64,000 nt of DNA from Thuidium tamariscinum (lineage: Eukaryota; Streptophyta; Bryopsida; Hypnales; Thuidiaceae), in NCBI GenBank assembly GCA_947034885.2, contig OX344749.2, positions 4,169,501-4,233,500 on the forward strand, given 5' to 3'. Below the pieces are notes generated by a model that searched no databases, had not been told where the DNA came from, and was given only the letters and a program-made list of their open reading frames with translations. Shown here piece after piece: positions 12,618 through 64,000 of this stretch; the stretch's first letter is position 1, and each line of letters begins with the position of its first letter. The position numbers and the translations under genes are program-made.

Positions 12618-13011
12618 TACAACGAAGCTGATTCAGAATGAGTTTCTCTGTATGACAAAGAACAATACATCCAAAATGGTCTTCAATATTTCATATAGAG
12701 GACTCTATGCAACAATATTTTTGGTGTATAACGCAAAATGAAAGAATGTAAGTATGTTTGTCTTAGATGAATGGCGCCATTGCAATATACTATACTTCTT
12801 GTACAGTCTTTCTACATATAAAGAAGAGATGATGTCACATCCTTTTAGCTTCAATTGTTCTCAAAGCAAATTAGAGAACCATCTTAATTTGTAAAGATTG
12901 CCTTTATGTGTGAAGTACTTTTTGTTTTGTATGTGTCTTCAGCAAATGTATATGTTAATGAAGTTCAAAATGAAACTATTGTGAGGAACAAAACCATATT
13001 TCAAGGGTTAA

Positions 13012-13656
13012 CCCCAAAGTGACCCTGAGGACAGAATGTGTCCTCGGCCAATTTTTGAAGTTAAATAAAATCTTATGAAATTATTATTTTTAGTAGTGTA
13101 TATTTTTGAAAAAATATTTTTGAAGTTAAGTTTTAGCTTCAAAAATTTGATTTTGAAAATGTGCAAATTTGATTTTTCTATTTAAGATTTTGTGCACCGG
13201 TGTCTAGTGCAATCTTGACTTTTGTAGTGTTGAGGGCTCTTGAGAATGAGCCTCAAATACACTAGATCTTTGAGAAAAAATCTTATTAGAAAATCATTTA
13301 AAAAAACTGTAGAGTAGATTTTGAGAAGCTATGAATTGATTGGGGTTATGCATGTTAGGATCTTTAACATCATAATTTTTGGTGACCAACTTTTTCGATT
13401 CAACATGTGAAAAAAGGATTAAAAGACTTCAAATCACTTTCACAATTTTAATACCCTCATGATCAAACATTATAATCTTTCAATCCGTAAGAGATATTGT
13501 TGTGTTTTCTTTTCTAATGTGATCTCTAACATGTCTAGTTTGATTTTATACGGTTACAATTCCAAAAAAATTGATACAACTTATCAAAATGTTGACTTTT
13601 TGTTTAATTTAGAGCAAATTCCTAGAAGCTCAAGAAATTCCAAGGTCATTTTGGAG
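13012..13656. mobile_element. TTAA-flanked piggyBac-like element (copy N), 645 bp
   Basis: TTAA stands at 13,008-13,011 and 13,657-13,660. Inside, the left end reads CCCCAAAGTGACCCTG and the inverted right end CTCCAAAATGACCTTG. Much of the interior matches the inverted copy at 28,593-29,116 (for example the stretch around CATGCATAACCCCAATCAAT and the CTAGATC/ACACT segment). There is no coding capacity. It is inserted in the inner CACTA. Confidence 0.7.
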
Positions 13657-14039
13657 TTAAGAGACATTCAAAGTATTCAAAAGCTTTCCAATGTCCACCA
13701 CCCCTTCCAATGGAGTAGGCAAGAAAAAAGTCCATTTGCAAAGTCATATTTACAATGCCTTCTTCCTTTAGGAACAACCTTGCCTCATTAGTACATTGAA
13801 ATATGTAATTTAAGGAATTTGAATACAAATATGTGGCTACCCTAGCCTAATTGTTTCACACATATTTTATAATAGATGAAGCTTAAAAAAAATTTAGTGC
13901 ATGCAAGAAATGAAGTCATATCTACATCCAAAGAAATGATTCTTATGGCTAAAATACAAAAGGTTTACCTACATTTGAGCATGTCTTCCATGTGTGGTCC
14001 AAAAACTAAAAATTCTTTACTATCAAGAAAGGGTGATTG

Positions 14040-14540
14040 AAAATATGACTGCACAATGTGTGAGAAAAAAATACAACTAAGTACTTTTGGGGCCCAAATT
14101 GCACTTGGGCTACCCCCCAAAAAATAATTGTAATAATTGTATAAATATGACTGCAAAATATGACTATTTAAAAAATATGACTACATAATGTGATTGAGGA
14201 AAAAATACAACTGGGTACTTTTGGGGCCCAAATTGCACTTGGGCTGCCCCCCAAAAAAATTGTAATAATTGTACAAATATGACTACAAAATATGACTGGA
14301 GAAAAATATGACTAGTAAATATGACTGGGCGTTCCCGAAACACGTTCCCAAAAGTTCCCTATGAAGTGTTTTGCCCTTCCTTAATGGATATATACTATAC
14401 GGCCATAAAGTATAAAACAAAAATGTGACTGGCAGTCATATTTCCAGTCATTTTTTTTCCCAAAGTTTTCAATTACCAAAATATGACTGCGAGTAGTCAC
14501 TAGTCATCCCCAGTCATATTTTTGTAGTCATTAAATGCTC
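14040..14540. repeat. Right subterminal repeat region of inner CACTA with a duplicated 60-bp block
   Basis: Repeats of AATATGACT in both orientations mirror the left end. A block of about 60 bp containing GTACTTTTGGGGCCCAAATT and GGGCTACCCCCC occurs at about 14,064-14,125 and again at 14,199-14,260. The region approaching 14,554 alternates AGTCATATTT and ATATGACTG. Confidence 0.8.
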
Positions 14541-14557
14541 ATATTCTAGTAGTGTAT

Positions 14558-15559: not shown

Positions 15560-15562
15560 TTA

Positions 15563-17990: not shown

Positions 17991-18227
17991 CCCCTCTAGT
18001 GCATTTGTTGCATTAAGTGCAACCTAACTTTCAAGAACAATGGAAGCTTTTAATTCTAAAGAAATGTGCCACTTGAATTGCAAAGATATCATTCACACTA
18101 CAATGGATGGCCACCTCAAGTTCAAAAAAGCCTTCCTTAGCAACAATATTGTTGGATATAAGACGCTTAGGAAAGGGTTTAAGATGAATAAAAACTCCAA
18201 TTTATTTTTGAAGCTAGTGTGAATTAA

Positions 18228-19027
18228 CCCCTAACTACCCAGTCGACCATATATGGTCAATTTGAAATTTCAGGCCCATTTCTGAATGGGGAGTTAAATT
18301 CTTGTGACCATTTAAAAAAAAATTCAAGCAGTTTTAAGTATTAACTATTGAAAACTTTCATTTTTCACTGAAAAAAGTACATAATTGATTATTGAGAGGT
18401 CTTCAAAGGCATACATGTATCATAAGTGAAGTGCAAAGCCTGCCAATTTTACTTCATTTCCTAGCTTTATGCAAATTCACTTAATTTGAGATCTAAAAAA
18501 TCGTACGTATCCATTTGCTTTGAAAATGATCCTAATGGAAAGAGGAAAGTGTTTTCATGATATTCACCATTGAAAATTTAAATATACAACAATTTATTTG
18601 GAGTTATTTGCAAATTCTACTTATAAAAATAATTGCAGTTCAACAATTGCAAGGTAGATTGTGTAATGAATTTAATAGCTTTTCATGTGAAATTAAGTTT
18701 TTTAGAAGTGCATTTTAGTGTGCTAACACTTTTTGTAATTGTTCATGTCACCTCAAATCCCCCAAAATATTTATATACAAATATGAGAAACATTGTGGGA
18801 AAAGGCAACATACTAAATATAGAAAATGTACTCTTCTATCGTTATAATCTCACAACTCCAATGCAATTTTGTGCTCAAAATTTGTATACTTACTAATAAA
18901 CAAGCTCTTTAAACATCTATGCAGTTAGATTTTCGAAAAAATCAATTTGCTTCACTAGGGATGACTACAAGTCCATGCACTATTTTCATAGTCAAAACAC
19001 ACTTGAAAAGGCTTGGGCATTTAGGAA
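18228..19027. mobile_element. TTAA-flanked element (copy H), about 800 bp
   Basis: TTAA at 18,224-18,227 is followed by CCCCTAACTACCCAGTC. The other end reads, inward, TTCCTAAATGCCCAAGC, next to TTAA at 19,028-19,031. Terminal identity is about 11 of 17. The interior is AT-rich with no gene. Confidence 0.5.
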
Positions 19028-19203
19028 TTAAGAATCTCTTCATAATGGAACCCACTTGAAATTTATTTGAAATTCAGTGTAAATATGAAGTGCTACTTTG
19101 AAACAGGACATACGATCTCCAAATGAAGGTTGATGTCCAATGTCATCCACATCCCTATTCAAATTGAGTACCCCTTGTAAGGTAGGAGGTTCTAAAAGCG
19201 AGC

Positions 19204-19578: not shown

Positions 19579-19827
19579 GGACATTAAATCCTACCATTGA
19601 AGGTGGGCCCAGTAGGAAAAAATTTGAGTTTTCCAGGTTGGAAAAAAACAAAAAACCCTACAGTTTGAGCCATGTTTAGGGCATGATCGAGATACTCCTG
19701 AGCTAAGTTGGGTCTCTGATTGCAGATATGAATTCAGGATTTGCAAAATAAATAAATAAAATTCCTGCATTTTCCCCAAGGTAAGTCCACCTGCTGGGCC
19801 CACCTTGGATGGTAGGATTTAACATCC
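19579..19827. mobile_element. MITE with about 38-bp terminal inverted repeats (Q)
   Basis: The left end (GGACATTAAATCCTACCAT, then AAGGTGGGCCCAG) is mirrored at the right end (CTGGGCCCACCTT, then ATGGTAGGATTTAACATCC). Length is 249 bp. I saw no clear target duplication, so the superfamily is open. Confidence 0.7.
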
Positions 19828-20580: not shown

Positions 20581-20600
20581 TGCAAGAATTCCCTGTCATC

Positions 20601-20877
20601 TAAGGTAGGTACACCCAAAATGGCACTTGACCTTAAAGTGCCCTCTACAACGTGCATACATTTTCAAAATCAGTCATGTACCCAGACTGTAGATGGCGCT
20701 TTCAGAAACACAGTTCGATTTCTAATAACTTTTGCATACCGTATCCAAATCCACTGTTCTTTGATGCGTTGGAACATGCTTTCACTCACCAACAAGACTC
20801 TAAGAAAATCTGAACAACATAATAACAGGAACTAGGCACAGTATGAAAAACTGGCACTTTTGGGTGTACCTACCTTA
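20601..20877. mobile_element. TA-flanked MITE, family I copy 1 (277 bp)
   Basis: It begins TAAGGTAGGTACACCCAAAA and ends TTTTGGGTGTACCTACCTTA, a perfect inverted repeat of 20 bp including the TA. The interior (CAAAATCAGTCATGT, GTAGATGGC, ACTTTTGCATACNGT) is shared with copy 2 at 25,186-25,462, which has the same length. Confidence 0.88.
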
Positions 20878-21329: not shown

Positions 21330-21333
21330 TTAA

Positions 21334-22249
21334 CCCCTAAAGTCCCCAAGTCCCCTCGGGGGACACTTGGCATTTCGGGCAGGCTCGTGTGACTTGAAAT
21401 TTTGACCTGATTTTTTGAAACTTTTTTTGAAGATAGGGAATCACATCAGCTTTCTAAAAATATAATTTTTTTTTCAATCGGTGCCTGGGAGCAAAACTTT
21501 TGCCATCCGAAGTCAAAAAAGCAATTCGGCGGGCAAAAAAAAAAAACCACAAAAAAATGAAATGAAATTTTTTTTTTTCCTGAAATATTATGTTTTTTTC
21601 TACATTTGAAGCTTTGATTCATCTTATTTGAACTAATAATGAAAAAGTTATGGACAATCTTGTTTTTCGGGCAATCTAAGCATCTTCTTCAAAAACAACT
21701 CATAGAATTCATTTTTGAATGCAATTTTCAATTTTTTTCAATTTTTTTTTTGACAAGGTTAAGTTTGTTTTCAAGAACAATCTCACCGTTGGGATTATGA
21801 TTTTTTAATTCCATCTAAGGGCTATTAACAATTTAGTATTCTGTTCAACTTTGGACCTACTTCTACTTAACAATTTTTTTATATGTGAAAATCAAGTATT
21901 GACATTCTGAAATTTTTTTCCCCAACTCTCAACTCAAATGTTCAAGATGAAAAATTTTAACCTTATGGTGTGTAGTGCAAAAAAAATCTACAAATGGCCA
22001 TCAAAGTCACTTGAAATTGCAGGCTGCAGTTGAAAAAACCTTTTTTTTTCAACTTCAAATGCTAATATCTTCCAATCCGTACGGTCAAACTTCATGAAAT
22101 TCTTACCACATGATTTGAGACAAGTGAAGTACAAGATCCTACGGTTAGATTTTTAAGAAAAAAGTTTTTTTAGGTTTCTTGAGTGATTGCAGCAGAAATG
22201 GTAGTTTTCAGTGGTTTCAGAGCTAGAAAATGCCTTGGTAACTTAGGGG
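21334..22249. mobile_element. TTAA-flanked piggyBac-like element (copy D), 916 bp
   Basis: TTAA at 21,330-21,333 and 22,250-22,253. The left end is CCCCTAAAGTCCCCAAG and the right end, read inward, CCCCTAAGTTACCAAG. The interior is shared with F (24,220-24,900), for example around GAAGCTTTGATTCAT and AGATCCTA, and the left 100 bp with M (29,121). No open frame of note; non-autonomous. Confidence 0.75.
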
Positions 22250-22254
22250 TTAAA

Positions 22255-24115: not shown

Positions 24116-24219
24116 TTATATACATATTAGAAGCTCACATGCTCACATGTTCATGCTCACACACTAGCATCATTGAAGCAATGTAGGGTTACTTTCCATT
24201 AATTAGGCAATTTGGGTAG

Positions 24220-24900
24220 ATTAAAAAAAAACTTTTTTTGGAAACAAAAATTTGAAAGTGGTTTTATAAATTTATATATACATGGAAAGCTTTGAATCAT
24301 TCTATTTGAATTAGTGAATCAAAAGTTATGAAGAGTTTGCAGGTAGTTATGGATTCTTAACTTTAAAATAAACTTCGAGTCCTTTATTTTACTTAATTTT
24401 CAATATTTTTGGAAAAAAATAAAAACATTGGGTGTAGATTCTTTTATTACAACATCTGAACCATTGAGGTGGACAAGTTTCAATTTCACAAATAGATTCT
24501 AAACTCTTTTTCTTTTTCTTACTATTTTTTTCCTATATGTTGTGCAGTTCCAAATGATTTGAAAATTTTGAAGCATATAGCCAACTTGCCTTGAAGAATG
24601 AATCCAAAAAAGAACTACCATTTTGGATTTTTTTTTCATGTAAATGTAGGCTTGTATAGTGCAATTGCCCGATTTCTTACAAGGCCAAAAAAATATTTGG
24701 GTCAATTCAAATGCTCATATCTTGTAGTCCATGTGGTAGAAATTTCTATATTCTTTTCCTCATCTTCTCAAACCAGCATACCACAAGATCCTATAGTTAC
24801 ATGTGTCTAAAATTAATATTTTCAAATATTTGGTACTTGTGTTGGAAATGGCAATTTTGGAAGGTTTTTGTTGAAAACATGAATCAAGGAACTTTAGGGG
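24220..24900. mobile_element. TTAA-type element F, D-like, left end lost
   Basis: The right end reads, inward from TTAA at 24,901-24,904, CCCCTAAAGTTCC. The interior resembles D (GGAAAGCTTTGAATCAT, AAAAGTTATG, CACAAGATCCTATAGTTA). No CCCC-type left end was found. Confidence 0.55.
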
Positions 24901-25185
24901 TTAAAAAACTTTGAATTGGTCCTTCTGGGGTGAATGAACTTGCCTCTTTCTTTATAGTGGCCTTAGAGTCACAACTATTCATTGGTTTTCCTGATGCATT
25001 TCTTCTTCTCAGTGTATGTGGAAGTTTGAACTCTTTGGACCAATGGGCATGGGAACCCAATTTTTCAGTTTGTCATCACGAACTTCAAGGCATGTGAATA
25101 TAGTGCCAATGATGGTGCATTGAAATGCAATCAAGTAAATTTGGTGTCAACCCCTGTACCAACTCAATATGGAGAAAATGGTACC

Positions 25186-25885: not shown

Positions 25886-26160
25886 TTGAAACAACCGAGT
25901 TTGAACATGGCCAGCTACCTTGATGGAAGGGATGAACACCAGCAAAATGTGGGAAAGGAGCAGGACCATTTATGAAGGTCTGATTTAGCACCCTATGCTG
26001 AAATTGAATTTCCACGTCATATTCTGAGGGTTTCACATCACCTCACACCACTCACAAGATGACATGTGGCACTTTTTATTTCTTTAAGAAACGACTTAAT
26101 ATATGTCGAATTTGACCTAATGACTTGAACATGTAGGGTTCTAAGCTTATGAATCTTTAA

Positions 26161-27039
26161 TCCTTTAGTGACCGTGGTTGATTTGAGGGGTGGGTGTAGC
26201 TCTTCAAGAAAGTAAATTTTGTAGCCACTCTAACAATGTAATCTTAAATCAAAACGTATAAAGTATTGCCATAAGGGAGATTCTTCAACCTAACAAAAAA
26301 TCAAACTCATCCAACGGTACAAATTGTTACAAATAAGGTAGAAGGTCCATAAATCAATCTTTTAAGGGCTAGAATTGAATTTTGGGGAGGTGGAACATCT
26401 TTAAATATTTTTCATTAAATTTTTCTCAAGAGGCAAGTAGAATAGGCATCTAATCCAAGTCGTTTCATATTTTTGGAAGCTTTTTGAAATTAGTTACAAA
26501 ATTTTGAAGTTCACAAAAAATTATCATTTGTGGTCATCAAAAGCAATACCCTCCTAAAATGTGCAGATTTGGGAAATTGAAGAAAGCAAAATGTACCTCT
26601 AAATCATGTTTGCTTTTAGAGCCTTGTTGGAATTTGAGTTGTTTCCCTTAATCTTCAAAAATCAATGACTTGAATGACCCTTTAAATTTTGTATTACATA
26701 AATTTCAATGCATAAGTTTACTTTGAGCATTCATCATATTACAAAGCAACACCTATGCCTTGTCAAGACATCAAGATACAAAAAAATCTCACAAACTGGT
26801 TGATATTTTTTCGTATTTTTGTTGAACACTTCCCATTTGAGGGTCCAGGCCATTTGAGTTTGCAACCTCATAGCTAATGCATTAATGCTCCAATTTTCTT
26901 GAAATTGATTTTGTTTGAAGCGCATGAAGACACTCTAATTGTGTTACTTTTTGAGATTTTTGTGATCAAATGTATTTAAAAAAAAATTAGACCAAGAGTG
27001 CAAAAATCAATCCAAAAGTGGTCAACTGGTCACTAAGGG
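26161..27039. mobile_element. TTAA-flanked piggyBac-like element (copy E), 879 bp
   Basis: TTAA at 26,157-26,160 and 27,040-27,043. The left end TCCTTTAGTGACCGTGGTTGA pairs with the inverted right end CCCTTAGTGACCAGTTGAC. No gene inside. Confidence 0.7.
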
Positions 27040-27043
27040 TTAA

Positions 27044-27764
27044 AGGACGGACTTATAACCACTGGTTTAGAGCCTCGTTACCCATTACTATATTTGATGC
27101 CATTTTTGAAGTAAATATGTATTAAAAAATTTATATTTATTTTTTAGAGATGAAATTATATGGGTTCTGTACTTTGTAAAAAAATTTAGACTTTTTAGTG
27201 GAGAATTGATTCTTTGAGAATTTTTTGAAGAAAAAGTGAAGAAAATTCCATCAAATGGAAAATTATTTTCAAAAATTTGAAATTTTCACCATGTATGTAT
27301 ATTTCACGCAGATCAACATTATAGTATAAACTCAATTTTTGTATTGTTCTATAATTAGAATTTGATAGACATTGAAAATACATCTCAAATTCAAATGGCA
27401 ATAAAAAACTGAATTTTAGGAATTTTTCAAAATTCAAATTGGAGTAGAAACTAAAGTACATGAACTTCATTTTGTTAGTTGGGCTTGAACTCAAAAAATA
27501 TTATTTTTGTGGAAAAATTTCAAATTTATGCAAGATGTAGCAACTTCCCAAAATACACTAACTAAAGTGACATATTTTGTGATCTGTTTTAATACTAACT
27601 TCTCATTCATGTGAAGACAAACACTAGCAAGATTACAAACTCTATTAGATATGCTTCATAAACATCCATGAAAAGTTGACAAGAAAGAAATGAATGAATA
27701 AATGCTTTCAAGATGACCTTCTGTTCATCTAAAAGCCACAAAATGGTGTTGCCATGATTAGAGG
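27044..27764. mobile_element. TTAA-type element A, same family as B and C, left tip missing
   Basis: From 27,044 it follows B and C (GGACGGACTTATAACCACTGG here; CGGACCTATGACCACTGG in C). Shared interior includes AAATTTTCACCATGTATGTA and TTAGTTGGGCT. The right end is ATTAGAGG next to TTAA at 27,765-27,768. Confidence 0.6.
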
Positions 27765-28058: not shown

Positions 28059-28591
28059 TAAGGTAAGGGCAAAACACCCATTCCCGTCCATGTATCCATT
28101 CCCGTCCATATGTAGCACATTTTTCAAAAAATGGGCACCCGTGCTACATATGGACGGGAATGGATACATGGACGGGAATGGGTGTTCCCACCTTAGAACC
28201 ACCCATACCCAATCACTTAGCAATTTTGGAGTATATCATGAGGAATATGAAGTTATGCAAATTTTTCTCATGTAGTATGATAGAAAATATGAGGATTGCA
28301 AATTTTTCATAATTTTATTCCTAAAAATCGAATTACTATGATTTTTGAAAGCTAGAAAGTGCTTTGAACCTATAGCCAATGTTTAGATTCTTCTAATTCC
28401 GATCATTCAAGAGACTACTTTCTTGATTGGTACTCCTAGCACACTTTATGACACTTTGGGACATGTGTCATGACCTCATTAGTCCCAACCTTGAAAATGA
28501 GGAAAAAATACATTCCAAGCTTTGATTAGAAATAGGCACAACCTACAAGTTGGGGTATAGATCTATGGTTGAATAGGTCGTTCTACCTTAA
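28059..28591. mobile_element. TA-flanked element K2, interrupted by hairpin MITE J
   Basis: The left end reads TAAGG then TA at 28,064-28,065, is interrupted by J, and resumes at 28,194 with TAGAACCACCCATACCCAATC. The intact copy K1 has TAAGGTAGAACCACCC without a break. The right end is GTTCTACCTTA, finishing at 28,591. The interior matches K1, K3 and K4. No gene. Confidence 0.85.
28066..28193. mobile_element. Hairpin MITE J with a perfect 44-bp stem
   Basis: The arms 28,075-28,118 and 28,141-28,184 are exact reverse complements (44 of 44) around a 22-bp loop. The arm contains two near-copies of CCATTCCCGTCCAT. Its termini are AGGGCAAAACACCC and, inverted, AGGTGGGAACACCC, flanked by TA on both sides. 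Comparison with K1 shows that the TA was duplicated on insertion. No gene. If transcribed it would fold into a long perfect stem. Confidence 0.92.
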
Positions 28592-28592
28592 C

Positions 28593-29116
28593 CCCTAAAT
28601 GCCCAAGGCTTTTTTTGAGCTTCTAGGAATTTGTTCTAAAGTGAACACAAAGTCTACTTTATGATGAGCTTTATCAATTTCTTTTTGGAAATGTAACCAT
28701 AAAAATTCAAACTAGACATGTAAGAGATCATTTAGGAAAAGAAAACACGATAATATCACCTATAAATTGAAAGATTATAATGTCTGATCATGACGGTATG
28801 AAAATTGCAAAATTGATGTGAAGTTTTTCAATCCTCTTTTTACGAGTCAAATCTAAAAAGCTGATGACCAAAATAATATGAAGTGAAATGGCCTAACATG
28901 CATAACCCCAATCAATTTGTGGCTTTTCAAAATCTATTCTACAATTTTTTTAAGTGAATTTCTAATGTGATTTTTTTTCCAAGATCTAGTGTATTTGAGG
29001 CTCATTTCCAAGAGCCCTCAACACTAAAGAAAGTCAAAGTTGCAATTGGGACCCTTGTACAAAATTTTGAATAGAAAAATCATAGTCAATTATTTTCGAG
29101 ATTGGATTTTTGATGC
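28593..29116. mobile_element. TTAA-type element G, inverted relative of N
   Basis: It starts CCCCTAAATGCCCAAGGC after TTAA at 28,589-28,592, a site that overlaps the end of K2. The interior is the reverse complement of the element in the inner CACTA (13,012-13,656). The right side stops at TTAA 29,117-29,120 without a GGG end and is probably truncated by element M. Confidence 0.6.
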
Positions 29117-29120
29117 TTAA

Positions 29121-29410
29121 TCCCTAAAAGCCCATTGTCTTCTTGGGGGACAATTTGGAGTTTGGGCAGGTTCTGTAAACCTCAATTTTTAATGAATCTT
29201 CTTGAAACTTTGAAGTAGTTGCAAACATTTTTGCAAAACATTCCAACTTTGCAAAAGCATCACCACAAATAAAATTCCCTTGTCAAAGGAGATGTACCCA
29301 CTCTCAAGATACAACATCAATGTAATGAACAAAGAATGATAAGTGACCCACTCCACTTTAGGCAACGTTCAAGTACTTCGAAATCTGCATTCAAGTAAAG
29401 TTATTTTTTT
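29121..29410. mobile_element. TTAA-type fragment M, D-like left end
   Basis: After TTAA at 29,117-29,120 it reads TCCCTAAAAGCCCATTG and then TTCTTGGGGGACAATTTGG, parallel to D (CTCGGGGGACACTTGG). No right end was found. It runs into a retroposon scrap (ATCAAATGGAATTTTATTGC) near 29,418. Confidence 0.5.
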
Positions 29411-29482: not shown

Positions 29483-30448
29483 CCCTTGAGTGCCTAAGTG
29501 CTTCAAATTTGGCCTCTTCAATTTGAAAGGTTATCCTGTGTTGACTCTTATAATCTTTGTAATAGTACCATCAAATCATTTGTCCATTTCTCTATTGCTT
29601 TAAGGTTGTCTTCACTACCAATCAGTATGGTTAGTTTTTGTGAATCTTGTTTTTAACCCCTAAAAGCCGGGCCTATGACCACTCGTTGGAAGCTCCGGCT
29701 TACTCATCACTCAATTTGTTACCATTTTGAAACCAATCATGTCTGAAATTTTTTTGTTTTAATTTTCAGAGATGAAAGTATATGTCTTCTGCGCTTCCCA
29801 AAAATTTTCGGAAATTTTTGAGTAAAATTGAGATTTTTTTAAGAAAAAGTGAAGGAAAAATCATAGAAAATAAAAAATTCTCTCAAAAAATCTGAAAAAT
29901 TCACCATGTATGTAAATTATAGTGAAAAACATCCTAGTGTAAACTCAACTTCCGTGTGGCCTATTTTTTGGATGCACGAGACATTAAAAATGCAGCCAAA
30001 ATTCAAATTGCAATAAAATATTCATTTTGAGGGATTTTTTCAAAATTCCAATTGGAGTAGAAACTAGAAGAGATGACCTTCATTTCATTAGTTGGGCTCA
30101 AACTCAAAAAATGTCATTTTCAAGAAGAAATTTCAGATTTTCTCAATTTCTCAAAATACACTAAAATGACAAATTTTGCCATCCGTTTTCCTTAATTATT
30201 TCTAAATTACATGAAAACAAACATTAGTTAGACTGCAAAGTCTATTGAAAACTCTTTGTAACTCAACACGAACGGTCATTAAACAAAAAATGGATGAAAA
30301 AAATAGTGTTCACCCTGTCTCCTGGCCCTGGGAAGTCATCCAAACGCCACGGAATAGTGCTGGTGGCGTTTCAGGGTTAATGATAGTTTGATTGGAATGA
30401 GTGCAAGAGGGTCTGGATTTTGGTGAACATGAGCTGGGCACTCAGGGG
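29483..30448. mobile_element. TTAA-flanked element L1, carrying nested element B
   Basis: TTAA at 29,479-29,482 is followed by CCCTTGAGTGCCTAAG. The right end, read inward from TTAA at 30,449-30,452, is CCCCTGAGTGCCCAG. Element B (29,657-30,376) lies inside, so L1 proper is about 245 bp. A second copy of this end type is at 60,282-61,135. Confidence 0.65.
29657..30376. mobile_element. TTAA-flanked piggyBac-like element B, 720 bp
   Basis: TTAA at 29,653-29,656 and 30,377-30,380. The left end is CCCCTAAAAGCCGGGCC; the right end, inward, CCCTGAAACGCCACCAG. It is nearly collinear with C (63,289 to the window end) and with A. No coding capacity. Confidence 0.75.
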
Positions 30449-32966: not shown

Positions 32967-34100
32967 GATTGCAGAACGAGGATGGGTCATTTCCTGGTCA
33001 CGAATGGGGAGAGATTGACACTCGGTATGCTCCATTTTCCAGTCTGCGGTGCTACCTTTGCCCCCTCCCCTCGTTCATACCTGCGAGGAGGAGTTGCATT
33101 TGTGGCATCCGAACTTTCGCCGCATTCTCACTTTCATAGTCGCACGTTGTCCAACCGATGTCTGGTCTTCGACCCCATATTACCACTCAGATTTTCTTAA
33201 CTTCAAATGCCAGTGCAATTTTTTTATTTTATCACGGGGTACGTTTATCTTATTTAATTCTGCTCTTGTTTGAATGGAACAGCTTTTCTTATTGCGCCAT
33301 CTGCTGCCTTTCTTTGCTGAAGCGGTTCAACAGGATCGATCTAGAAAAGACCTGCAACTTTGTTGCCTCGTGCAAGAATTTTGATGGTGGCTTCGGTTGC
33401 ATTCCTGGCGGAGAATCCCACGCAGGCCAAAGTAAGATCCAACCCAGTTTTGGAGGTTCAATTAGGACCAGATTGAGCGAAAGAAACTCAATGATTATTT
33501 TCCCTGCTTGGATCTTCGTGTTGAAACTAACCTCGAAGGGGCCAATTCTTTATCTGAAATAAATCATGTCGGAAGCTTCAAAGTAGGTAACAAAATGCAT
33601 CAGTAGCAAGCATATATACCATGCTCTACATTTTTGAGGTGAAATAGGTCATTAAGAAGCTTCCCGTTCCAAATTTGCCAACAGAAAGCTGATGTCATAC
33701 CTGTCATTTTGAACAATAGAGATATGTTTTGAAAAGTTATTGTTTTTTTTTCATTAGCTTCCAAAAGTAGGCTTTCAATTTTTAGCTTGGTCACTTAGGG
33801 ATTAATCATTATTTGTAAGTCAATCTTCTTAATAATGTGAATTTGTTTGTTGCAACTTTTTCTTGTGTTGTAGTATTTGTAGTAGGTGGTGCTATCCTCC
33901 TTGTGGATAGAGATTTGCTAGGTTGGTGGTCGGTTGAATGACAAGTACAATCAAGGGGTCTCAATGGTTGCCTTCATAAACTTCTAGATGTAAGTGTTTG
34001 ATTAGAATTTTTGAATATTTGAGTCTCAATACTTTGCATTGGATAGACAATAATAGAGAGGTTTGATAACATTCTTTAGCTGATGTGAGACTTGACCTTT
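32967..34100 (+). pseudogene. Decayed internal exons of Rab geranylgeranyltransferase beta subunit
   Basis: Exon 32,967-33,024 reads LQNEDGSFPGHEWGEIDTR. Exon 33,283-33,431 reads [15 protein letters not shown] and then [18 protein letters not shown]. Both are in phase with GT-AG ends and match the RGGTB/RABGGTB family. Exon 33,874-33,989 is more decayed: IFVVGGAILLVDRDLLGWW, then TGA at 33,939-33,941 where Arg is expected, then RGLNG and KLLDV. A scrap LHWID (34,034-34,048) marks the next exon. The N-terminal exons and the C-terminal end are missing. The working enzyme attaches geranylgeranyl groups to Rab GTPases; this copy cannot. A TTAA-type terminus (CACTTAGGGATTAA at about 33,792) lies in the intron between exons 2 and 3. 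Confidence 0.88.
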
Positions 34101-37200: not shown

Positions 37201-40032
37201 GAAAAATTTAGATGTTTTCTTCTTCCTAAGTACACTTCATATTGCATGCTTGTTAATTATTGTGGCACAACAATGATTGCACTAATTTTTTAAATATAGA
37301 ATAAAGGTCGGTAATAAAATCTAATAAAGGGACAAAGGATAAATTTATTGTTGCTTCTTAAAATTTTATTGATGATTTTGATGTTGCCTTTGCCTATGGT
37401 TTCCTAAATTGAATGTTTAGTCTTGATTTTTGGTAATGAATATTTTTTTATTGATAATGCATGGATAGATACTATAGAAGAAGCTGAAATTGCCTTGGTT
37501 GTTTTAGAGGAAAAGAAATCAGTGCTTGAAACAAAGACTAAGAATGTGGAGCAAAAGGGTGGAGATGTTCCATTGGAAAGTTTGGACTTAAATCAAGCCT
37601 TGAATTCAAAAGAAGGTAGTGACCATTGACCAACTTGTACTTTCAAGAGATTGATTTTTAAAATCTTTTTGTAGTTGATCAATAGTCTTAGAATTGAGTG
37701 ATAGAAGAAAATAGCCATTTGATGTTGAGGTGACCCATGTACTAGAAACAGGGGAAGATCATTCACTAGATGGAGCATCATGTGGTGACAAAAGTGAAAC
37801 GCATAACAAAGGTTTGAAAAAAGTTGCCTTACTGATCGAGAGATTCGAAGCTAATGAAAGTATCCAACGGGAATGGGAAGAGAGCAACGGCAAGCATAAT
37901 TCGGTATGTTAACAATTTTATTCTTCTATGTATAGAAGAAAACTTGATTGTGTAGATGGTGTGATTGAACTCAAAGGTCTACATTGTAGTTTAAACTTGA
38001 TTTTTATTTCAAAATTTATAGTCATAAGTTTTGTATATAGTATTATCTAGATGAAATGGAAAGTCTATTTGCATTCTATTTGCAAATTTTGTTTGAATTT
38101 ATACTGGACTAATTCCAAAATGTAAGGCCTTGTTGCAGACAAGCAGACGGTGTAGCAACGAAGGTTCTCTAAGTCGGAGGAATAGCAATCTTGGAACACC
38201 TTTGTCGATCGAGTCCCAACAAAGATATCACCATGAAGTTATAGCTGATGAATTTTCGAAACATTTGTTGCAAGTGGAAGATCCCAATTCCTATAGCTTT
38301 GCTATAGATTCTTTGATTTCACCACACGAGGGTATGACTACAGACAACTTGCTTATAACAAAAGACAATGGTAGAGTGGGTACACACATTCTTGGGCACA
38401 GTAGTCCTTCAACTTATCCAAATTCTCCAATAGTTGGAGAAAAGGCTCGGCAATTTGCTGGAGATGGGGTTATTACTCATGGTACTTTAAACCCAAGTCT
38501 TGACGAAACAAAACTTGGATTGCATGGGTCTGTGGATGCTTCTTTCAATAGTCCTCGTCTTTTTAGTCAATCATTTGGACCAAGAATAGGGGAAAAAAGA
38601 GGAGATAGTAGCATCACCTTTGAGGACAAATCACAACTTTTGAAACAATGCAACTACCCAAGAACTTTCGATGGAAATTGCTTGACCCTTGAAAGTCATT
38701 CAGAGAGAAGCAACGGAGAAATAGGAGAACTTACAAGATCTCAAGCCTTCAATGGTTGGGTAAATCAAGAGGATTTGTACATATCTCCAGCACTAACTAA
38801 CAAAGGAGATCCAAGTTTAGTGCAATGGGATGCATCAATTAGAGGCCATCATTTGCAATATGAGAGATTGGCCCCTTATTCACAAGCTGGAAATAGCAAT
38901 GCATACATTAGGCCAGACCACTATCCTGTACGGAATGATGAGAGAGAAATCTATCGTGGACGGATGGAAAGTGTATCAAGAAGTATGGAAGGGCTTGGGA
39001 GTTCTTGGAGGTCATTGTCAGATGATGAAGGTGACAAAACTCAACTGTTTCCAGATATACCAGAGATAATCGCTTCATCATCTTCAAGAAAGTTTGGTCC
39101 ACAAATGTCCTTCCAGGTAGCCCTTTACATTGTAAATGACTTGTATGCTTGATTGTTGTGACATATTGTACACTCATGGAACACTTTGTTTTTAAGAAGG
39201 TACATAGATGCTTGTATCAATGTGTTTTGTTCACTAACTTGTATAATATTAATTATCCCATATTTATGCTTGTTTGCGTTGTTCAAGTGTTTTCCTTCTC
39301 ATTGTTTGCAGGCAAATGGAGGCTCAAGATGGTCAAACTATTGTGAAGCTAGATACATGGAGGGGACATCCCAAAGTTATCCTTATCCTAGTCAGGATTT
39401 TCCAAGGGAGAATTTTCGAAGTCAATCAACATCCGATAAAATAGGATGTACATCAAGTAAAGTGAACGAGGTTCTTAAAGCTTTACAATTAGCTAAACTA
39501 AGTATTCAGAATTCCAATACCAAAAGATCAACAACTTCAAGTGATTGCAGGTTCGTACTATTTGCTTATATGAAAGACATCTTTTGTCTTGCAAACTTGT
39601 TAGCTAAAGATATTTTTTTGTATTTTCATTTTGCTCTCCATTCAAGGTTTTAGGAGCGAAGATGTTCATAATGTTCATAATTATCATGATTGTTGTAAAA
39701 TCTACAATCCCTAGATGTACATTGTGCAAGATCTTTTTGTTCACCATTTTGTTTGACCAAGAGGTTTATGACTAAACAGTTATGTTGAAGGCGATGGATC
39801 CAATATGAAGAGAGATTATGGATTTTTTGATGGCCAAATTACCAATGAAACTCCTACTACACTTCGTGTTTGGTCACACCCAGAAATCTCGAGAAGATAT
39901 TCAACAGGCTCTTTTCAAGGCGCACGATCTGCTACTTCCCATCTCCATCCATCAAACTCTGTACCATTTGGAATGCTCATAGATGCACACCGGAAATATC
40001 CTGAAGAAAAGTATATGACAAGGCAATTTTAA
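34236..40032 (+). CDS. Plant-type coiled-coil protein, 1071 residues, intact
   Basis: Ten exons join in phase: 34236-34372, 35066-35593, 35800-35920, 36170-36660, 36945-37108, 37469-37615, 37746-37903, 38139-39116, 39312-39550 and 39780-40032. I do not know its function. Residues about 75-125 are Lys/Glu-rich helix (FEKKKLEEKI). Residues 222-300 form the best conserved-looking part, a coiled coil with SIAITIDFLRARLLAERASS and QELEGRLDQEI. A short helix-rich exon follows (RLHYMWNQMAMEMSTLVE). The middle is Ser/Asn-rich and probably disordered. A late helix reads KVNEVLKALQLAKLSIQ. It has no signal peptide or membrane segment. The start is uncertain: the first exon is open from 34,110 except for TAG at 34,191-34,193, so I took the ATG after it; an upstream exon may be 5' UTR. 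Confidence 0.75.
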
Positions 40033-40437
40033 CCCTTGAGGGACATTTTTGTTCTTGGCAAGGCAACCAGAGGAATCTTGCATGAAATTTTAGGACATGG
40101 GCTTGAATAATTGATTAAGTCAGGAACTAAATAAATGAGAACAATCGGTCTAGTAATGCAAGAAGTGGAAGAAAACAAGGGGAGTTTTTGCTCATGTATT
40201 GTTCACTACTCCATCTACATTAGTAGTGTCTCTAGGCTTTGGGCTTTACCTAATCGAACCTTTGGATCAAACAATCTATCTTGTGCAAATCAAGGAATTG
40301 TACTTGTGTTGCACCCATGCAACAAATGTGATCTTTGTGTAAATATGAATAGAACAAGAAATGATTGACTATTAAATTGGCAACTTTCATTATTCCAATG
40401 CAAGAATGCTTAAGGGGCTTGAAAGGTCCTGTAAGGG
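40033..40437. mobile_element. TTAA-type element P directly after the coiled-coil gene's stop codon
   Basis: TTAA at 40,029-40,032 includes the stop codon TAA (40,030-40,032). The left end is CCCTTGAGGGACATTTTTG; the right end, inward, CCCTTACAGGACCTTT, next to TTAC at 40,438-40,441 (one change from TTAA). Length is 405 bp; no gene. Confidence 0.55.
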
Positions 40438-42135
40438 TTACAAGACATTTCAATACTTGACAAGATTATTAGAAAAAGTTGTTGTCTCCATGTCTCTATG
40501 ACCAAATTTCTTGTCTTGGCAATTTAGATGTCTTCAATAAATTGTGTTCCTAGTAGGTTCATGAACACAACAATTCTACTTGACCCTCTCTAGATTATGA
40601 TGGCCTCAATTGAACATTTAGAAAGTTGCTATTATTCCAATGCTTTTATATGGTGTATCAACTACAACAAACTTCCTCTAGTAGTGATTGTATTGTTGCC
40701 ACCATGTAAGTTAGCATTATTACAATTGTAAATTGTTAGCCTAGTATGTTCAAATGGTTTTTGGTTAGCAACCCTTTGAAAGTGAAACTACAATAGTATG
40801 GCTGTATAAAAAAAGGAGTAGTTTTTTGACACTTTTTTTGGATTCAAAGTGTTGAAAAAAAGCCATCATGAAATTCAAAACATTTCAATATATTTTTTTA
40901 TATACTAAAGTGTTGAAAAATAAAATTGCTTGCATCATCTTTTTGGTTAAGTGTCAAAAATTTGTTGGAAACATCAAACTTTCTAGGTATTATAGTTACA
41001 TGACCTAAGGTAGATAGAACGCAACATTTCAAGATCTATACTATAATGTCGGGTACAACAATAATTTGAACTACTATTATATTATTTCAAAAAACTTTGT
41101 ATATAGTGAAATGAATTTTTCATTTTATATCTCACATAATTGACAATCAAGTCTAACGCAATCCTAATGAAGCATACCAAATTTCAACCTTGAAAAACTA
41201 AAATTTCATTTTGGTGAATTTTAAAAGTCAATTCCCATGGTTTCACATAGTAATTTATTGAAAACAATTAGTGATGAATTTTTTTAATTTGATTTTGTAG
41301 GTATGTAAAAGACATCCCTAAACACATCTTTCATGTTAAAAAATACCCCATTAAGCGACAAAAATATGATCTATGAAGTGTTCAATATGAACCAAAATTT
41401 GGAAAATTAATATCTCTATGTTTTAAGTAAACTTTGGCCAAAAAATTATACCATCATGCTCAAAGGTGCAAAATTAGTATCAACGCAAGGTTCAAACATC
41501 AAAATATAATTAAAATCTATTTTTTTAAGCAACAGTGTTAAAAAAAGAATTTGAATTATTTCTGTACCCGACTATGCAATACAGTACAGTAAGCCAAACT
41601 AACGACGAGTAATTAACGACGACATCCTCACTTTACTAATGACGAGTATTTTCATCAAAACGTTGAACAGATGCGCAACTCAGGAAAACACGATTATGCG
41701 AAACCAATAACCCACGCCAGCCATGTAAATCCTCAATCTGGTTACAGTGTCCAGGCCAAGGAAGACATATCGCCTCCCTCGTCAATTCCTACGCCATGAT
41801 TCGATGACAAACTCTCTACCACACATAAGCTGGGAAAAGCCTCAGGATGCTGACAAGCCTTCCCGAACTATAACAAACCTCGCTATCCTAACGGTACAAC
41901 AACTTCCTGTGGAGCTTTGTGCTCCAAAGCATGCCACTGTCACACAAGCACTTCAGCATTCAAGGGCTACGACATGAGTAGCCTTGCATGTGTGAACCAT
42001 CAGATCACTCCAAACGCTTTGTCATTCTTCCACTTCCGATTGAATGTAGAACAAAATCGATGCAAGAGAAGACGAAGTACTCAGCCGAGCCCCTTTCTGG
42101 ATTTGAGCACGTAGTTGAGCACGTGTGTTGACTCT
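40438..42135. other. Intergenic DNA between two convergent genes
   Basis: The left part is AT-rich with nothing recognised. From about 41,570 the base composition becomes more even, and this should be the 3' untranslated and flanking region of the minus-strand tetraspanin gene. No RNA gene was seen. Confidence 0.4.
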
Positions 42136-47035: not shown

Positions 47036-50000
47036 GTCGAATTAGGAGTCTGCCCCATGCCATTGCTAAAAATTTTCAAATTTTTTCCCACATGAAGACA
47101 AGACAAGACAAGTGAGAGAAACTGTGTGAACAACTGAAATTATATTTTTTTGGCAAAGTATGAATTTGCTATAAATTTTTGAAGTGTTCAATCCAAAAGT
47201 CAGAGTCTTTACACTACCCTACACCAACATGCATTTGAATCCATAATACTCATCTTACTCTTTTGAAGCAATCACAATATTTTCTTACATGGGTCATTTG
47301 ACTACAATGGGTTGTTCTACCTTATTAATTCTTTAAGGATGAAGGAAGCCTTGATTTAAAATGACCATTTCATTTGAACATATTGTAGAAAGTACAACTT
47401 AATTGGGGCAAAAACAATTGATAAGATTGATTGAAGAACATTGTATATGCTGGTTTACAAAAATACTCATTGAACGAATTAGTATCTAGATAAGAGTTGT
47501 TCAAAATCACTAAAAAAGTGATGCCAAAATATAGGCAACTACCTTTCACGATTATGGAATTTGCAACTAAATATAAAGATACTAAAGTTTAAAAACTGAT
47601 GACTCAAGATGTCTTGGGTCAACTATAAGCATATAGTCTCTTAGTTTAATAACAAGGTCTTATAATAATGACATTTTAATATGCATATGTTGGGTAATTA
47701 TGTGTTTGTCACATATCATATGTTACATGTTATCATTCAAATGATCTCTTACATCTTAACTATTCAAGTCATCCTTCAAACAATTAAAATATATTGATAA
47801 TATTATAAATGTTTTGTTGCAAATTAGAAATGAGAGAGTTAGGACTCCTCTATTCACAAAGAATAACTATGATCTTATTACTTTGAAAGGATTTATAGTA
47901 TTACAAATAAATACAATTTCAATGTTAAAACTAGAAACATTTGAATGGAATTTTTATAATGAAAAGCAATTGAAAAATCATATAGAACTAGAGCCCAAAG
48001 TGCTAATTAGATTAATCTATTGAATAATAGTCAATTTTTAATCTTTTTTCCAACTTTATATAAATGGAAAGCCCCTTTTCTAATCCCTATAATCTATCTA
48101 TGCAATCAATTGATCAACTTACACATATATACATACATGATATCATATCAAAACCTCTTCAATCCTTAAATAAAGATGTAATTGTTTTCCAAGTAAAATG
48201 GCATAGTCCACATATTTACTTAGCATGAAGACCAACATTGGGTCAAATTGGCCATAAATGACAAATAACCATAATAGATGTCTTTACAGTATTCTCTTAA
48301 GTGAAGTTGATTTTTTTGTTCATTTTAAATTTTTTTGGTAGGTTTAGGCTCGTCCAAAACTTCAAAGAAAAAAATCACCAACCATTGCAAGATCAAATGC
48401 TTGCATTCAACAAATAAACTTTTCTTCTCTTTCTTTGTGGATAAATTTCATCTTTCAAGCTTTTTAAGAAAAAAAGGATGCATGTCCTCCACCTTGTATA
48501 TAAACTTAAATGCTCAAAAAATATTATAAACATTCATATAAAAATTTCAACCAAAAATCTTTACATATATTCTTAAAAAGAATGTTAACCCTTAAAGGAC
48601 CAACTTGATAAATATATTTGTGATCTTTGTTGTTGCGGGTGGCTTGGGTAAAACCAACGCTAACCTCATTTTGTATCATGGACGACGAAGTGGGGTTAAT
48701 GGCCCACATGATCGAGACTCGTTTGTTCTCACGGTGAAGTTTGTTTCTTAAAGCTTGTCACTGAGAGTTTGAAAGTTTAGGAACTAATCTTTTAGACAGC
48801 TAAGCTTGTGGTCTAGCTATCCCGTTTTACCTGTCCAAAGCCATGGAATCTTATCACACATCTTTACCCTTAAATCCATTTAGAGCCAACCATTACAAGA
48901 CACGCCGACAGATACTGGTTCGATCGAAATTTAGAAGATTTGACATTCAAGTAGAAGGATTGAAGTAATAGATTGAAGAATTTGACACATCTATGACTTT
49001 CCGTAACAAAATACAATGATTTAGTTGATGAGATACTTGTGATGAGCTCACTCCTACTCATCTTCTTTATTAATTTGTTGAATGTTAGTGAGGTGTGTCT
49101 ACGAGTGACAAGTTCACTTGTTCATATTATCTTATTGCTTCCTTCATTCCCAAGTCGTTTCTGATCACAGCCAGAGTCCTCATGATTTCTTGAAGCAAAC
49201 ACTCTCTATACAAAAACGTTGGTAAGCGGGTCACAATCAACTTGGAGACATGGTGGGTTCCAATTCAAACACCACACCAGCTAGTTCAAACAAGGTAAGG
49301 TTTAGTTTAAATGTAGTAAAGGTTTTTTGGGGTAATTCCAAGTTCTTTCTGACGTATCTTCCCTCATCTTGATATGGCAAAAGTGAGGTCCATTGGCACT
49401 TCTATGGCATTAGTAGCATGGCTACTTGATACCTTGAGTATGGTATTCGGTGGTAATTTATGATGAATTTTAGAACTACTTGTAGTTATTATACAAACCC
49501 TGAAGGCTTAACTTTGGATACTCATAGGACGTTGCAAATCTCAATTAACTTCTACTGAAGTAGAACCTATGGATGGGGATCCACATTAGTGACTTTCTAC
49601 TTAGAAAATTTTGTGTAAATACATGGTTCTCAAGAAACCTCAACAATTCTTACCATTATTTTTCATTTCTTCTTGCTAATGTAACTAAAGAATTTTGGAG
49701 CTCAATTTGTTACTCTTCGTACCTCATTTTCCTTAGTTTGATGGATATGGGTGCTTCTACCTTATAATTTTTGAATGGTAAGCTGACTGGATGAAAGTTT
49801 ACATGGCCTAAACAATGGTAGCGAATCAGATGCTTGATTTACATCTTCTAACAAAACAAACAAAATTCCCATCCTGAGTACCTTGTGCAAAAACGATACT
49901 AAACCCAAAGCATGTCATCTTTAACCAACCCTTGAGAACAGATAGACCTCAAAAAGTTCAATACCATCAGATTCCCACTCTAGTATGACACGAAATAGGA

Positions 50001-61135: not shown

Positions 61136-61139
61136 TTAA

Positions 61140-62841
61140 AAGACAAATTTGTTTCCCATTCTCTTTTCATACAATCTTCAGAATGCCCTATGTCATTGCA
61201 TCCATATTAAACAAGAGTAAAAGTAATTCTTTAATTCTTTAATTTAAAAAAAATTCAAATTTCAACATTTTTACACCACATATGTTCATTGGCCATGAAA
61301 CAAAGTCTTTACACCTCTTTTCACTAGGAGCTTTTAAAGGGTACCAAGAATGTGCCCCTAGGATGCATAGAATCAAAGATCTTATTGTAACCAAAAAAAC
61401 AATCAAGACAAATAATCTCATTTAATAATATGGATGATTTTTAATATTGTAAGCTAGTGTAGCTTATTGCTATTAACCTTTACTTCAAGAATCCCCAATT
61501 TTTATATAGAATAGAGAGCTCTCTATCGATACCAAAAATATGACCAAGTGCCATATGATCCAAAATGATACCATAATTTAGGATATTCTAAGATCCAAAA
61601 ATAACTCAAAATCCATGACTTTCACACTATATGACTAAGTACCCAATTAGGGGGGGCTAGTACAATTGAGTAATTAAATTAATGAATTTAAAGTTGAAAT
61701 TTGGACGAGATGGTCTTTGAGTAGACTTGTAGATATTCTACACTTGAGAAGGTTTCTAGGCATTTTGGAAGACCACAAGTTCTTGGACTACGGGAACTCG
61801 CTAAAATCTACCACATAAGTGGACTAACGTAGTTGAGCAACTACCAAGAGTAATAATATTATTTAATTAGTTTTTTAAATTAATTATCAACTTTTTTTAA
61901 GAAATCAATTTTTTTTAAATCATTTTTTTGCTTTTCAATACATTTGGAAAATAAAATAAAATATTTTTAAATTAAAAATTTAGATTAACAAGGGCTAATT
62001 TGCAAAAATGGAAATAATTTCAAAGAATAGCCCTAAAATAGTCTCCCAGAGGTTTAAAACTCCTCTCATGAAGGGTTTTTAGAAATAAGTAATTATACGT
62101 TGTGTAGATGTCTACAAAATGAGCCTCTTTCTACTTGCATTTTGAAATATGTAAAAAATAATTTTGGTGTTTTCTTTGGTGGATGACCATCTCTATAAAG
62201 TTATTGCAAATGGCTAATTTTTATTTTAAATTTTTTTTCTATTTTCTACTAATTAATACAGCCAAGTATCTATTATTTGAAGTTGCGGACTTTCCTAGTT
62301 CTTCTATTTCGAGAATTCTTCGAAATGATTAATTCTAGGTGGTACTTTGCATCTTATGGGTGTTCACATTTTTTATCTTTTAAAATTTTAAAATTAGTTT
62401 TCTAATTTTAAAGTAGTCCAAGAAAGGCTTGAGTACTTGAAAAACACAACAAAATTGGCAAGTGTTTCTTGCATTCACCCGTTTTTGTACATTTCTTGCC
62501 CCTAGTGTGAGAATGACTACCTTATCAAGTTGACTTTTCACAACACTTTTGGGAGATGTATACAAATCTTGACAAAGTGAACTTGAAGTTGGTCAAAGTA
62601 ACTTCTCGTGGCACAATACAACTTTTTCTATTTCCTAAAATGACTCATCTCTACACCATAAAGACAACAGCGTACTAATAATCTAATATCTACATAGGCA
62701 ACATCTGAATCCCATCTTTATCCTTTGGGTGATTGCAAAAAGTCCTTGTTCTTTTTTTTGTCCCCTTATTCTTAAACATATGGTTTTTTGTTCATAATTT
62801 TTGCATTGTTTGTCCGCTTTCTATCAAATTTAAAGTGAAGG
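61140..62841. other. AT-rich intergenic DNA, nothing recognised
   Basis: No gene, RNA gene or clear repeat was found in this 1.7 kb. Confidence 0.4.
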
Positions 62842-63245
62842 TAAGGTAGAACCACCCGTAACCAATCATTTAAGGCATTTTAGGCATGATCTAGTGTAGT
62901 GTAAAGTAAAACAAATATTTTCAAAGGTGTAAAGATAAAAATGATGGGGATTGCAAAAACTTTGGTAATTTTATCACATGAATTGATATTGCTATGAATT
63001 TTGGAAGGCATAAAGAGTACTTGACTAAATGCCAATCTATGGAGTCTTTTAATTTTGATCACGCAAAAAACTACATTTTTACTCACTCTTTTCTACTTTT
63101 TTGCACACTACTTTGGAATATGTGCCATGAACTTTTAGTCCCAACTTTAAAAATGAGAAAAAAACTCATTCTAGCCTTGGTTGGAAATACGTCCATCATT
63201 AGATTGGCTAGGGGGGGCCGATTGGTTATAGGTGGTTCTACCTTA
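62842..63245. mobile_element. Intact TA-flanked element K1, 404 bp
   Basis: The left end TAAGGTAGAACCACCCGTAA and the right end, inverted, TAAGGTAGAACCACCTATAA match at all but two of 20 positions; both continue CCAATC. The interior is shared with K2-K4. It gives the uninterrupted reference for the J insertion in K2. No gene. Confidence 0.85.
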
Positions 63246-63288
63246 CATGTGATAGTTTCATATGTTGAATAGTATTTTGGATTCTTAA

Positions 63289-64000
63289 CCCCTAAACGAC
63301 GGACCTATGACCACTGGTTTGATGCCTTTCAGCATGTCACTCAGTTTTTTACCATTTTGGACCCAAATTCAAGTAAAAGAATTTATTTCTATTTTCAGAC
63401 ATGAAAGTAAAGGTCTTCTATACTTTACAGAAATTTCAGATTTTTTTGAAGAAAATTCATTTTTCAGAGAATTTTTGAATGGATAATGAAGAAAAAATCA
63501 TATCAAATTGAGATTCTCTCAAAAAATCTGAAATTTTCACCATGTGTGTATGTTACAGTGACAAACATCATGGTGTAAACTTTACTTCCGTGTACACCTA
63601 TTTCTAGGCTATAGTGGACTTTAAAAATGAAGCCAAACTTCAAACTCCAATAAAATATTCAATTTTACGATTTTTTCAAATATTCCAATTAGAGTATGAA
63701 CTAGAGTTAAGGAACTTCATTTTGTTAGTTGGGCTCAAACTCAAAAAATGTCATTCTCAAGGAAAAATTCCAGATTTACTCAATTTCTCAAAATACACTA
63801 AAATGGCAAATTTTGCCATCCGTTTTCTATAATTATTTTTCAATTACATGAAAACAAACATTAGTTATATTAAAAACACAATTGAAAACTCTTTGTAACT
63901 CAATATGAAAGGTTATTAAAAAAAAGTGGTTAAAAAAACTACTGTTCACCTATTGTTTTCCCCCTCCAAAGTTCGGTGAATGCCACAGAATGGCGTCGCC
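63289..64000. mobile_element. TTAA-type element C, cut by the window end
   Basis: After TTAA at 63,285-63,288 it reads CCCCTAAACGACGGACC. It is collinear with B (29,657-30,376) almost to the end: TGACCACTGG, AATTTTCACCATGTG, TTAGTTGGGCTCAAACTCAA, and GCCACAGAATGG at the last bases. The right end is expected just beyond position 64,000. Confidence 0.7.

Follow-up and report, generated by a model that had tools for sequence, protein, structure and literature searches.

The question raised by the stretch of DNA analysed here (64,000 nt, on contig C1 of a 363-Mb assembly in 19 contigs, genome G000; in the following simply the window) is to which superfamily its short transposon-like elements with CCC-type ends at TTAA belong, and which enzymes could have moved them. 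A preliminary description had proposed the piggyBac superfamily and had predicted a transposase-bearing partner elsewhere in the genome. Our analysis arrives at the same assignment. The window almost certainly contains layered, non-autonomous piggyBac elements, i.e. miniature inverted-repeat transposable elements (MITEs) and internal-deletion derivatives of 0.25-0.9 kb, in a plant that is most likely a moss, and these elements would have been moved by piggyBac transposases resident in the same genome. The superfamily assignment is supported by genes of the predicted family, PF13843 (DDE_Tnp_1_7), which were found in the genome between ends of the same kind.

Ends and coding content of the window elements

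Eight elements could be closed end to end (all coordinates are given on the plus strand unless stated otherwise): N (13008..13660, 653 bp including both TTAA, with ends CCCCAAAGTGACCC / CTCCAAAATGACCT), H (18224..19031, 808 bp), D (21330..22253, 924 bp), E (26157..27043, 887 bp), L1 (29479..30452, 246 bp without the element B that interrupts it), B (29653..30380, 728 bp, nested in L1), P (40029..40441, 413 bp) and L2 (60278..61139, 862 bp). A ninth, C (63285..64000), is a copy of B (79%) that is cut by the end of the window. All nine had been said to begin with CCC or TCC directly inside a TTAA, and this was confirmed at eight of the start positions (N, H, D, E, B, L1, P and C); L2 has GCAA on its left flank. 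The companion statement, that the elements end in GGG next to TTAA, stood in part. The exact GGG terminus is present in six of the eight paired elements, N ending in GAG and H in GAA, and TTAA occupies both flanks of six (N, H, D, E, L1 and B), the right flank of P reading TTAC and that of L2 being TTAA; C could not be closed.

The terminal inverted repeats (TIRs), scored over 14 bp, show 9-12 matches in seven of the eight paired elements, with 12/14 in L1. In the case of E the ungapped score is 6/14, and its ends align with a one-base shift. As had been described, the elements lack genes: the longest stop-free frame in any paired element is 137 aa (L2), and this frame, the only one scanned from the window elements, had no match to Pfam at E 0.1. 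Nothing was found in the window with Rfam or in a tRNA scan.

Transposase-bearing partners elsewhere in the genome

Searching the genome for PF13843 gave 116 scored matches from 659 candidates, the best with 5.7e-80 and the listed places distributed on C1 to C10; no match was found in 14 control genomes, whose identity was not stated. Of these places, 20 were then examined, each in a stretch of 9.9 kb (in the following, these and other fetched loci carry three-digit numbers such as L027). Ten of the stretches hold copies of one element of 5,096 bp, counted from TTAA to TTAA, at ten places with different flanks, its limits being given by the alignment of the copies alone. Eight of these copies are identical and two carry one difference each, which makes three distinct sequences. 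TTAA is present on both sides in 10/10 copies, and the ends begin CCCCTAAACGCCGG and CCCTGAAACGCCGG. The 1,023-aa frame of this element matches PF13843 with 5.9e-79 at residues 533-932; a frame of this length is listed also at an eleventh place, outside the stretches examined. Its relatives of solved structure are piggyBat (9c0f, 3.4e-27) and the piggyBac of Trichoplusia ni (6x67, 1.1e-22), and the acidic motifs TVDE, TTDNFF and GVDTADQ align with both structures.

In the other ten stretches, end pairs searched as TTAA-YYC (Y being a pyrimidine) were found around the transposase in 10/10, with TIRs of 10-16 matches out of 16 (12-16/16 in nine stretches, 10/16 in L021) and a span from end to end of 7.9 kb in one stretch and 5.0-5.6 kb in the others. 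As L024 and L025 belong to the same family, ten families are counted in total, including the 5,096-bp one. All ends of the nine further families (18/18) begin with CCC, although they had been selected by the pattern TTAA-YYC. A comparison of 11 domains shows no variation in the columns DE, D and GVD..DQ, and a cysteine-rich C-terminus, read directly, follows the domain in 11/11 frames; no Pfam family matched this tail in the 1,023-aa frame. It is important to add that frames were taken from stop to stop, and that two of the eleven (L019 and L022) have a stop inside the domain.

Between families the catalytic domains are 35-73% identical (99% in the pair L024/L025), four of the ten families being close relatives at 69-73%. 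Therefore, several diverged lineages coexist in this genome. The earlier idea that one transposase mobilises many passengers has to be modified in favour of several such lineages with different end variants.

These enzymes bear directly on Kolobok, another superfamily with a TTAA duplication. Kolobok elements and T2-MITEs share this duplication with the window elements; the Kolobok transposase is another one than that of piggyBac. Kolobok ends read 5'-RR...YY-3' (R being a purine), and the ends found here differ from these in reading 5'-CCC/TCC. The transposase between such ends is of the PF13843 family, which speaks against Kolobok, a Kolobok transposase itself not having been searched for. 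Even though Kolobok is known from some algae (PMC9587614), we consider it a highly improbable source of the window elements.

Association of the end motif with TTAA

To describe the ends without circularity, a profile was built from 20 ends of ten transposase-bearing elements, all of them outside the window. Among the 127,964 window positions scored on both strands, TTAA stands before eight of the ten highest-scoring ones and before nine of the twenty highest, compared to a background of 0.48% at window positions (binomial p 2e-16). With a motif taken from the window's own ends, which is circular, 18 TTAA-adjacent positions score at least 11/13, and other tetramers reach at most three each.

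The same association was seen genome-wide. The end variant CCCCTAAAYGCC has 2,867 matches in the genome and its reversed pattern 21, and for TTAACCCCTAAAYGCC the numbers are 2,202 and 0; therefore, 76.8% of the CCCCTAAAYGCC matches are preceded by TTAA. This count covers CCCCTAAAYGCC, and CCCYTNAGTGNCC is another end variant that lies outside it. In the first 100 entries of the list of TTAA-linked ends, which all lie on C1, neighbours within 1.6 kb face each other as expected for a single element in 11 pairs, ten of these having a distance of 554-749 bp; the opposite order was found in one pair.

It could be argued that such ends are chance matches or telomere repeats at interstitial positions. 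In plants, the telomere repeat includes CCCTAAA, which is close to CCCCTAAA, and CCCTAAA occurs 16 times in the window on both strands, only 6 of the 16 at TTAA ends. However, the longer CCCCTAAAYGCC follows TTAA in the large majority of its genome matches, as given above, and does so in facing pairs; in addition, ends of this kind bound transposase genes. We therefore give this explanation practically no weight.

Sequence ties and proposed mobilisation

Beyond the end motif, some of the window elements are tied to transposase-bearing elements by sequence. From the TTAA inward, D resembles L027 at either end, with 77.6% identity over the left 140 bp and 74.3% over the right 310 bp. Because both ends of L027 are present in this way, D looks like an internal-deletion derivative of an L027-type lineage. 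In the case of N, the left 49 bp are 83.7% identical to the left end of L028 and the last 29 bp 79.3% identical to its right end, and in the case of B the right 45 bp correspond, with 78% identity, to the left end of the 5,096-bp element that carries a transposase. Copies of the short elements themselves occur outside the window as well: B has a 91% copy at L023:6873-7607, and D2 (24206..24904), a relative of D by alignment that keeps the right end and most of the body, is 80% identical to L010:2120-2846, where the L010 copy pairs as 2120-3049 (930 bp).

Presumably, each family in the window owes its mobility to the lineage with similar ends. In the mechanism that we propose, elements of ~5-8 kb at other places in the genome encode transposases of several resident lineages. 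These enzymes would recognise the CCC-type end, cut out the element and integrate it into another TTAA, leaving TTAA on both sides. By analogy to the piggyBac family, transposase dimers would bind the ends, open them with TTAA-containing hairpins and restore the donor site (PMC7351741). We take this for a native, recently mobile piggyBac in a probable moss, and the transposases may be expressed and active now.

Empty sites and the length of the duplication

The joined flanks of the ten 5,096-bp copies were compared to the genome, 40 of 4,508 candidates being scored. Related element-free sites appeared for two of the ten copies (L016 and L009), and five such sites were fetched. The single TTAA that had been expected at empty sites was found in three of them, and the other two hold a one-base variant. 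In the case of L016, three paralogous stretches on the same contig (L031-L033), with flanks aligned on both sides, read TTAA, TTGA and TTAA. In the case of L009, two stretches on C1 (L034 and L035) read TTCA (97% over 178 columns) and TTAA. As a side observation, the surroundings of L016 (G000:C9:5222923-5345270) contain four related flank copies within ~120 kb, and the transposon was seen only in the L016 copy.

For D, a related empty site at L010:9584-9632 has one TTAA (86.5% over 52 bp), and the flanks of L028 lead to a weak related empty site at this same locus (68%), also with TTAA. A further insertion point is that of N', a copy of N that lies within a repeat called X in the following; here only the left flank is comparable, and it reads CTTAAT in the L026 copy of X without N' and CTTAC in the window copies at 63245 and 23815. 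No 3-bp duplication was seen at the related empty sites examined.

This last result is relevant for PIF/Harbinger (Tourist-like) MITEs, which duplicate TAA or TTA. They are common in plants, and TTAA contains both trinucleotides. Nevertheless, a 3-bp duplication could not give symmetrical ends, and the arrangement TTAA-CCC...GGG-TTAA is symmetrical. The related empty sites, which read TTAA once or differ from it by one base, also speak against a Harbinger TWA target (W being A or T). The enzyme between the ends is a DDE_Tnp_1_7 transposase, which is a further argument against Harbinger, the elements examined having been chosen by PF13843 and no Harbinger search having been made. A Harbinger origin is thus extremely unlikely.

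Tc1/mariner (Stowaway-like) elements with a TA duplication, ends ACCC...GGGT and a preference for TTAA would be harder to tell apart. Because TTAA is palindromic, filled and empty sites look alike under the TA reading, and the right flank of P, TTAC, fits it. In contrast, the full TTAA on both sides in 10/10 alignment-delimited, near-identical copies and the piggyBac-type enzyme argue for piggyBac, so that we regard Tc1/mariner as very unlikely, if by a trace less so than the other explanations.

Several points weigh against the piggyBac assignment. The flank is changed in two of the eight paired elements (P and L2), and E, H, P, L1 and L2 are tied to the transposase-bearing elements by end motif and TTAA alone, not by their body. 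In an unbiased scan for any tetramer next to any 13-bp TIR, TTAA accounted for 3 of 29 pairs at 11/13, one of which (19584-19822) is not of the piggyBac-like kind, and ATTT for 4; at 12/13, TTAA accounted for 0 of 6. Within 64 kb, TTAA is thus singled out by the end motif and not by the TIRs alone, so that the claim rests on the end motif. In the ten further stretches, the search for TTAA-YYC pairs means that TTAA and CC are no independent test there, and L021 and L023 each had two tied end-pair candidates, of which one was chosen. As to the empty sites, two of the five read TTGA and TTCA, the TTAA-type site of L009 (L035) covers only ~18 bp of the right flank, and that of D spans 33 bp to the left and 15 bp to the right of the TTAA. 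Finally, with a palindromic TTAA, a 4-bp duplication and a TA duplication inside a strict TTAA target are indistinguishable by sequence; the 4-bp TTAA duplication was chosen because of the transposase family.

A palindrome signal in the left end

Apart from the terminal motif, the left ends show a palindrome signal. Summed over the ten families, the palindrome score of the left ends is 62, as compared to a shuffled mean of 47.2 (standard deviation 2.3, maximum 53 of 300), and that of the right ends is 48, like the null. In a scan along both ends the peak lies at left bp 13-38 with a value of 60, the values elsewhere being 33-51. The best palindrome starts at bp 14-15 in 8/10 families, e.g. GCGCCAATTTGTGGCG and GGACACTTATTGTCC, and at bp 24 in L024 and L028. 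In the window, the left ends of N, H, D and Q (a further left end, described below) carry the palindrome with 6-7 of 8 matches, that of N reading GAGGACA-N5-TGTCCTC. The left ends of E, L1, P, L2, B and C score 3-5, which is the null level, and the right end of N scores 6. A plainer test for perfect stems of at least 7 gave a weaker result, with 8/40 ends as compared to 5.4% of shuffles and 10.8% of random window stretches.

When the left palindrome was sought in the right ends, 8/10 families were no better than shuffles. The other two gave matches, which lie far inside in L021 (P 0.015) and at right bp 22-43 in L024 (P 0.025), both values being uncorrected for ten tests; the right end of L024 may have a related repeat. 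Because four of the ten families are close relatives, the support for the palindrome corresponds to about seven independent lineages.

In the piggyBac of T. ni, a dimer of the C-terminal domain binds the palindromic repeat of the left end, which lies at bp 17-33, and the repeat is present in both ends (PMC7351741). The palindrome described here lies near the same position; unlike in T. ni, its signal is found in the left end, with none at the right end when summed over families. Altogether this leads us to a tentative proposal, which we rate as a serious possibility falling somewhat short of an even chance: a moss with several piggyBac lineages, diverged from each other and including one or more that jumped recently (ten copies, at most one base from the commonest sequence), and with thousands of CCC/TTAA ends spread over its genome would carry a variant with one putative palindromic binding site, on the left, and its transposase would tell left from right by the presence or absence of this site and not by spacing. 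The concentration of the palindrome at the left end bears on how piggyBac ends are distinguished.

Relation to known piggyBac systems

Animal piggyBac MITEs are short, gene-less and TTAA-flanked with CCC ends, and the window elements have these features in common with them and with the piggyBac MITEs of angiosperms. The transposase-bearing elements, for their part, share with T. ni piggyBac and piggyBat the TTAA on both sides, the CCC ends, TIRs of ~13-16 bp, the PF13843 domain, the three acidic motifs and the cysteine-rich C-terminus. They differ in size, as they measure 5-8 kb with long frames (1,023 aa, domain at 533-932), as compared to 2.4 kb (PMC2874221) and a 594-aa chain in piggyBac. 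They differ also in their host, which here is a plant.

PiggyBac is not new to plant sequence surveys. A review of plant MITEs names it among the angiosperm MITE superfamilies and, in the excerpt available, describes no transposase partner (PMC10004981); the elements described here have a partner in the same genome, to which the derivative D is tied. In the fern Ceratopteris 1,230 repeats are labelled PiggyBac (PMC6890710), the superfamily is counted among the plant DNA transposons (PMC10794571), and plants are named among the sources of piggyBac (PMC10813416). Neither the literature matches listed nor the excerpts consulted contain a report of a transposase-bearing piggyBac in a moss or another land plant. 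While the piggyBac family is already known, the host, the copy number and the recency are new, as is the concentration of the palindrome at the left end.

If true, a native, transposase-bearing and recently mobile piggyBac in a land plant extends the natural host range of the family. PiggyBac is a main tool of animal genetics, and the plant copies would offer plant-adapted relatives of the enzyme. With these copies one can also address the time and the source of the entry of piggyBac into mosses, and whether its movement continues. D, in turn, would directly connect a MITE-like element with the lineage from which it derives.

Identity of the host

PF01698 (LEAFY) matches the genome with 1.6e-27, and because LEAFY is present the host was taken as a streptophyte. 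The DNA-binding part of this protein reads KPKMRDYVHCYALHCLD and GENVGAWCQACY. D at site 312 and C at site 345 presumably denote type II. LEAFY is thus apparently of the moss type. Sites 312, 345 and 387 define the LEAFY types, type II occurring primarily in mosses and in one liverwort (PMC6588583). Accepting this typing, the host would be a moss rather than another streptophyte. Separately, SAM_LFY has six matches in the genome. One is strong (103.6 bits), whereas the remaining five are weak at 30-44 bits and may belong to another family.

Further members and layering in the window

In addition to the paired elements, seven members have one end or a homologous body, namely C, N', Q, D2, S, R and B'. 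Apart from C, these extend the earlier list: N' (starting at 28588), Q (29117), D2 (right end at 24904), S (right end at 33805), R (48585) and B' (27041). N' (28588..29120) is a copy of N in opposite orientation with an intact left end, 80.7% identical to 13132-13661; its homology to N stops at the TTAA where Q starts, and the remainder of N' was not found. Q (29117..29180) is a left end TTAA-TCCCTAAAAGCCC with the left-end palindrome, S (33743..33805, minus strand) a lone right end TCCCTAAGTGACC at TTAA and R (48585..48650) a lone left end CCCTTAAAGGACC at TTAA; in all three the far limit is the limit of the end examined. No partner was found for Q, R or S, nor a left end for D2. A pair at 48585-48699 (115 bp) was considered as an element and rejected, as its agreement is limited to the first three end bases.

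The window elements are layered, B being located inside L1 and Q starting at a TTAA within N'. A further case concerns B' (27041..27646), a third copy of the B/C family, 70.6% identical to B and to C, whose first bases are cut off by E. Because the right TTAA of E is the very point from which B' is homologous to B and C, E apparently inserted at a TTAA within the terminal repeat of B'. The TGAATCT to the left of E would then be the decayed start of B'.

Neighbouring repeats and genes

Repeat X occurs at 17185-17305 together with 17837-17916, at 23484-23736, 28194-28534 and 62847-63189, and also at L026:1605-2023; its copies are 70-84% identical, and one of them carries the N' insertion. Another MITE-like family, not of the TTAA kind, is represented by two 279-bp copies (20600-20878 and 25185-25463). 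They share 83% identity, are flanked by TA on either side and have long inverted ends AGGTAGGTACACCCAAAA. Remnants of CACTA-type transposons with matches to Transposase_21, DUF4218 and DUF4216 lie at 5123-9836 and 12072-12617. Overlapping low-complexity direct repeats fill 10300-11660, including five copies at 30-bp spacing (11420-11659). On the minus strand, ~50000-57633 is a nucleoporin gene stretch (Nucleoporin_N 4.3e-20, Nucleoporin_C 1.9e-15), which we take to be of the NUP155 kind.

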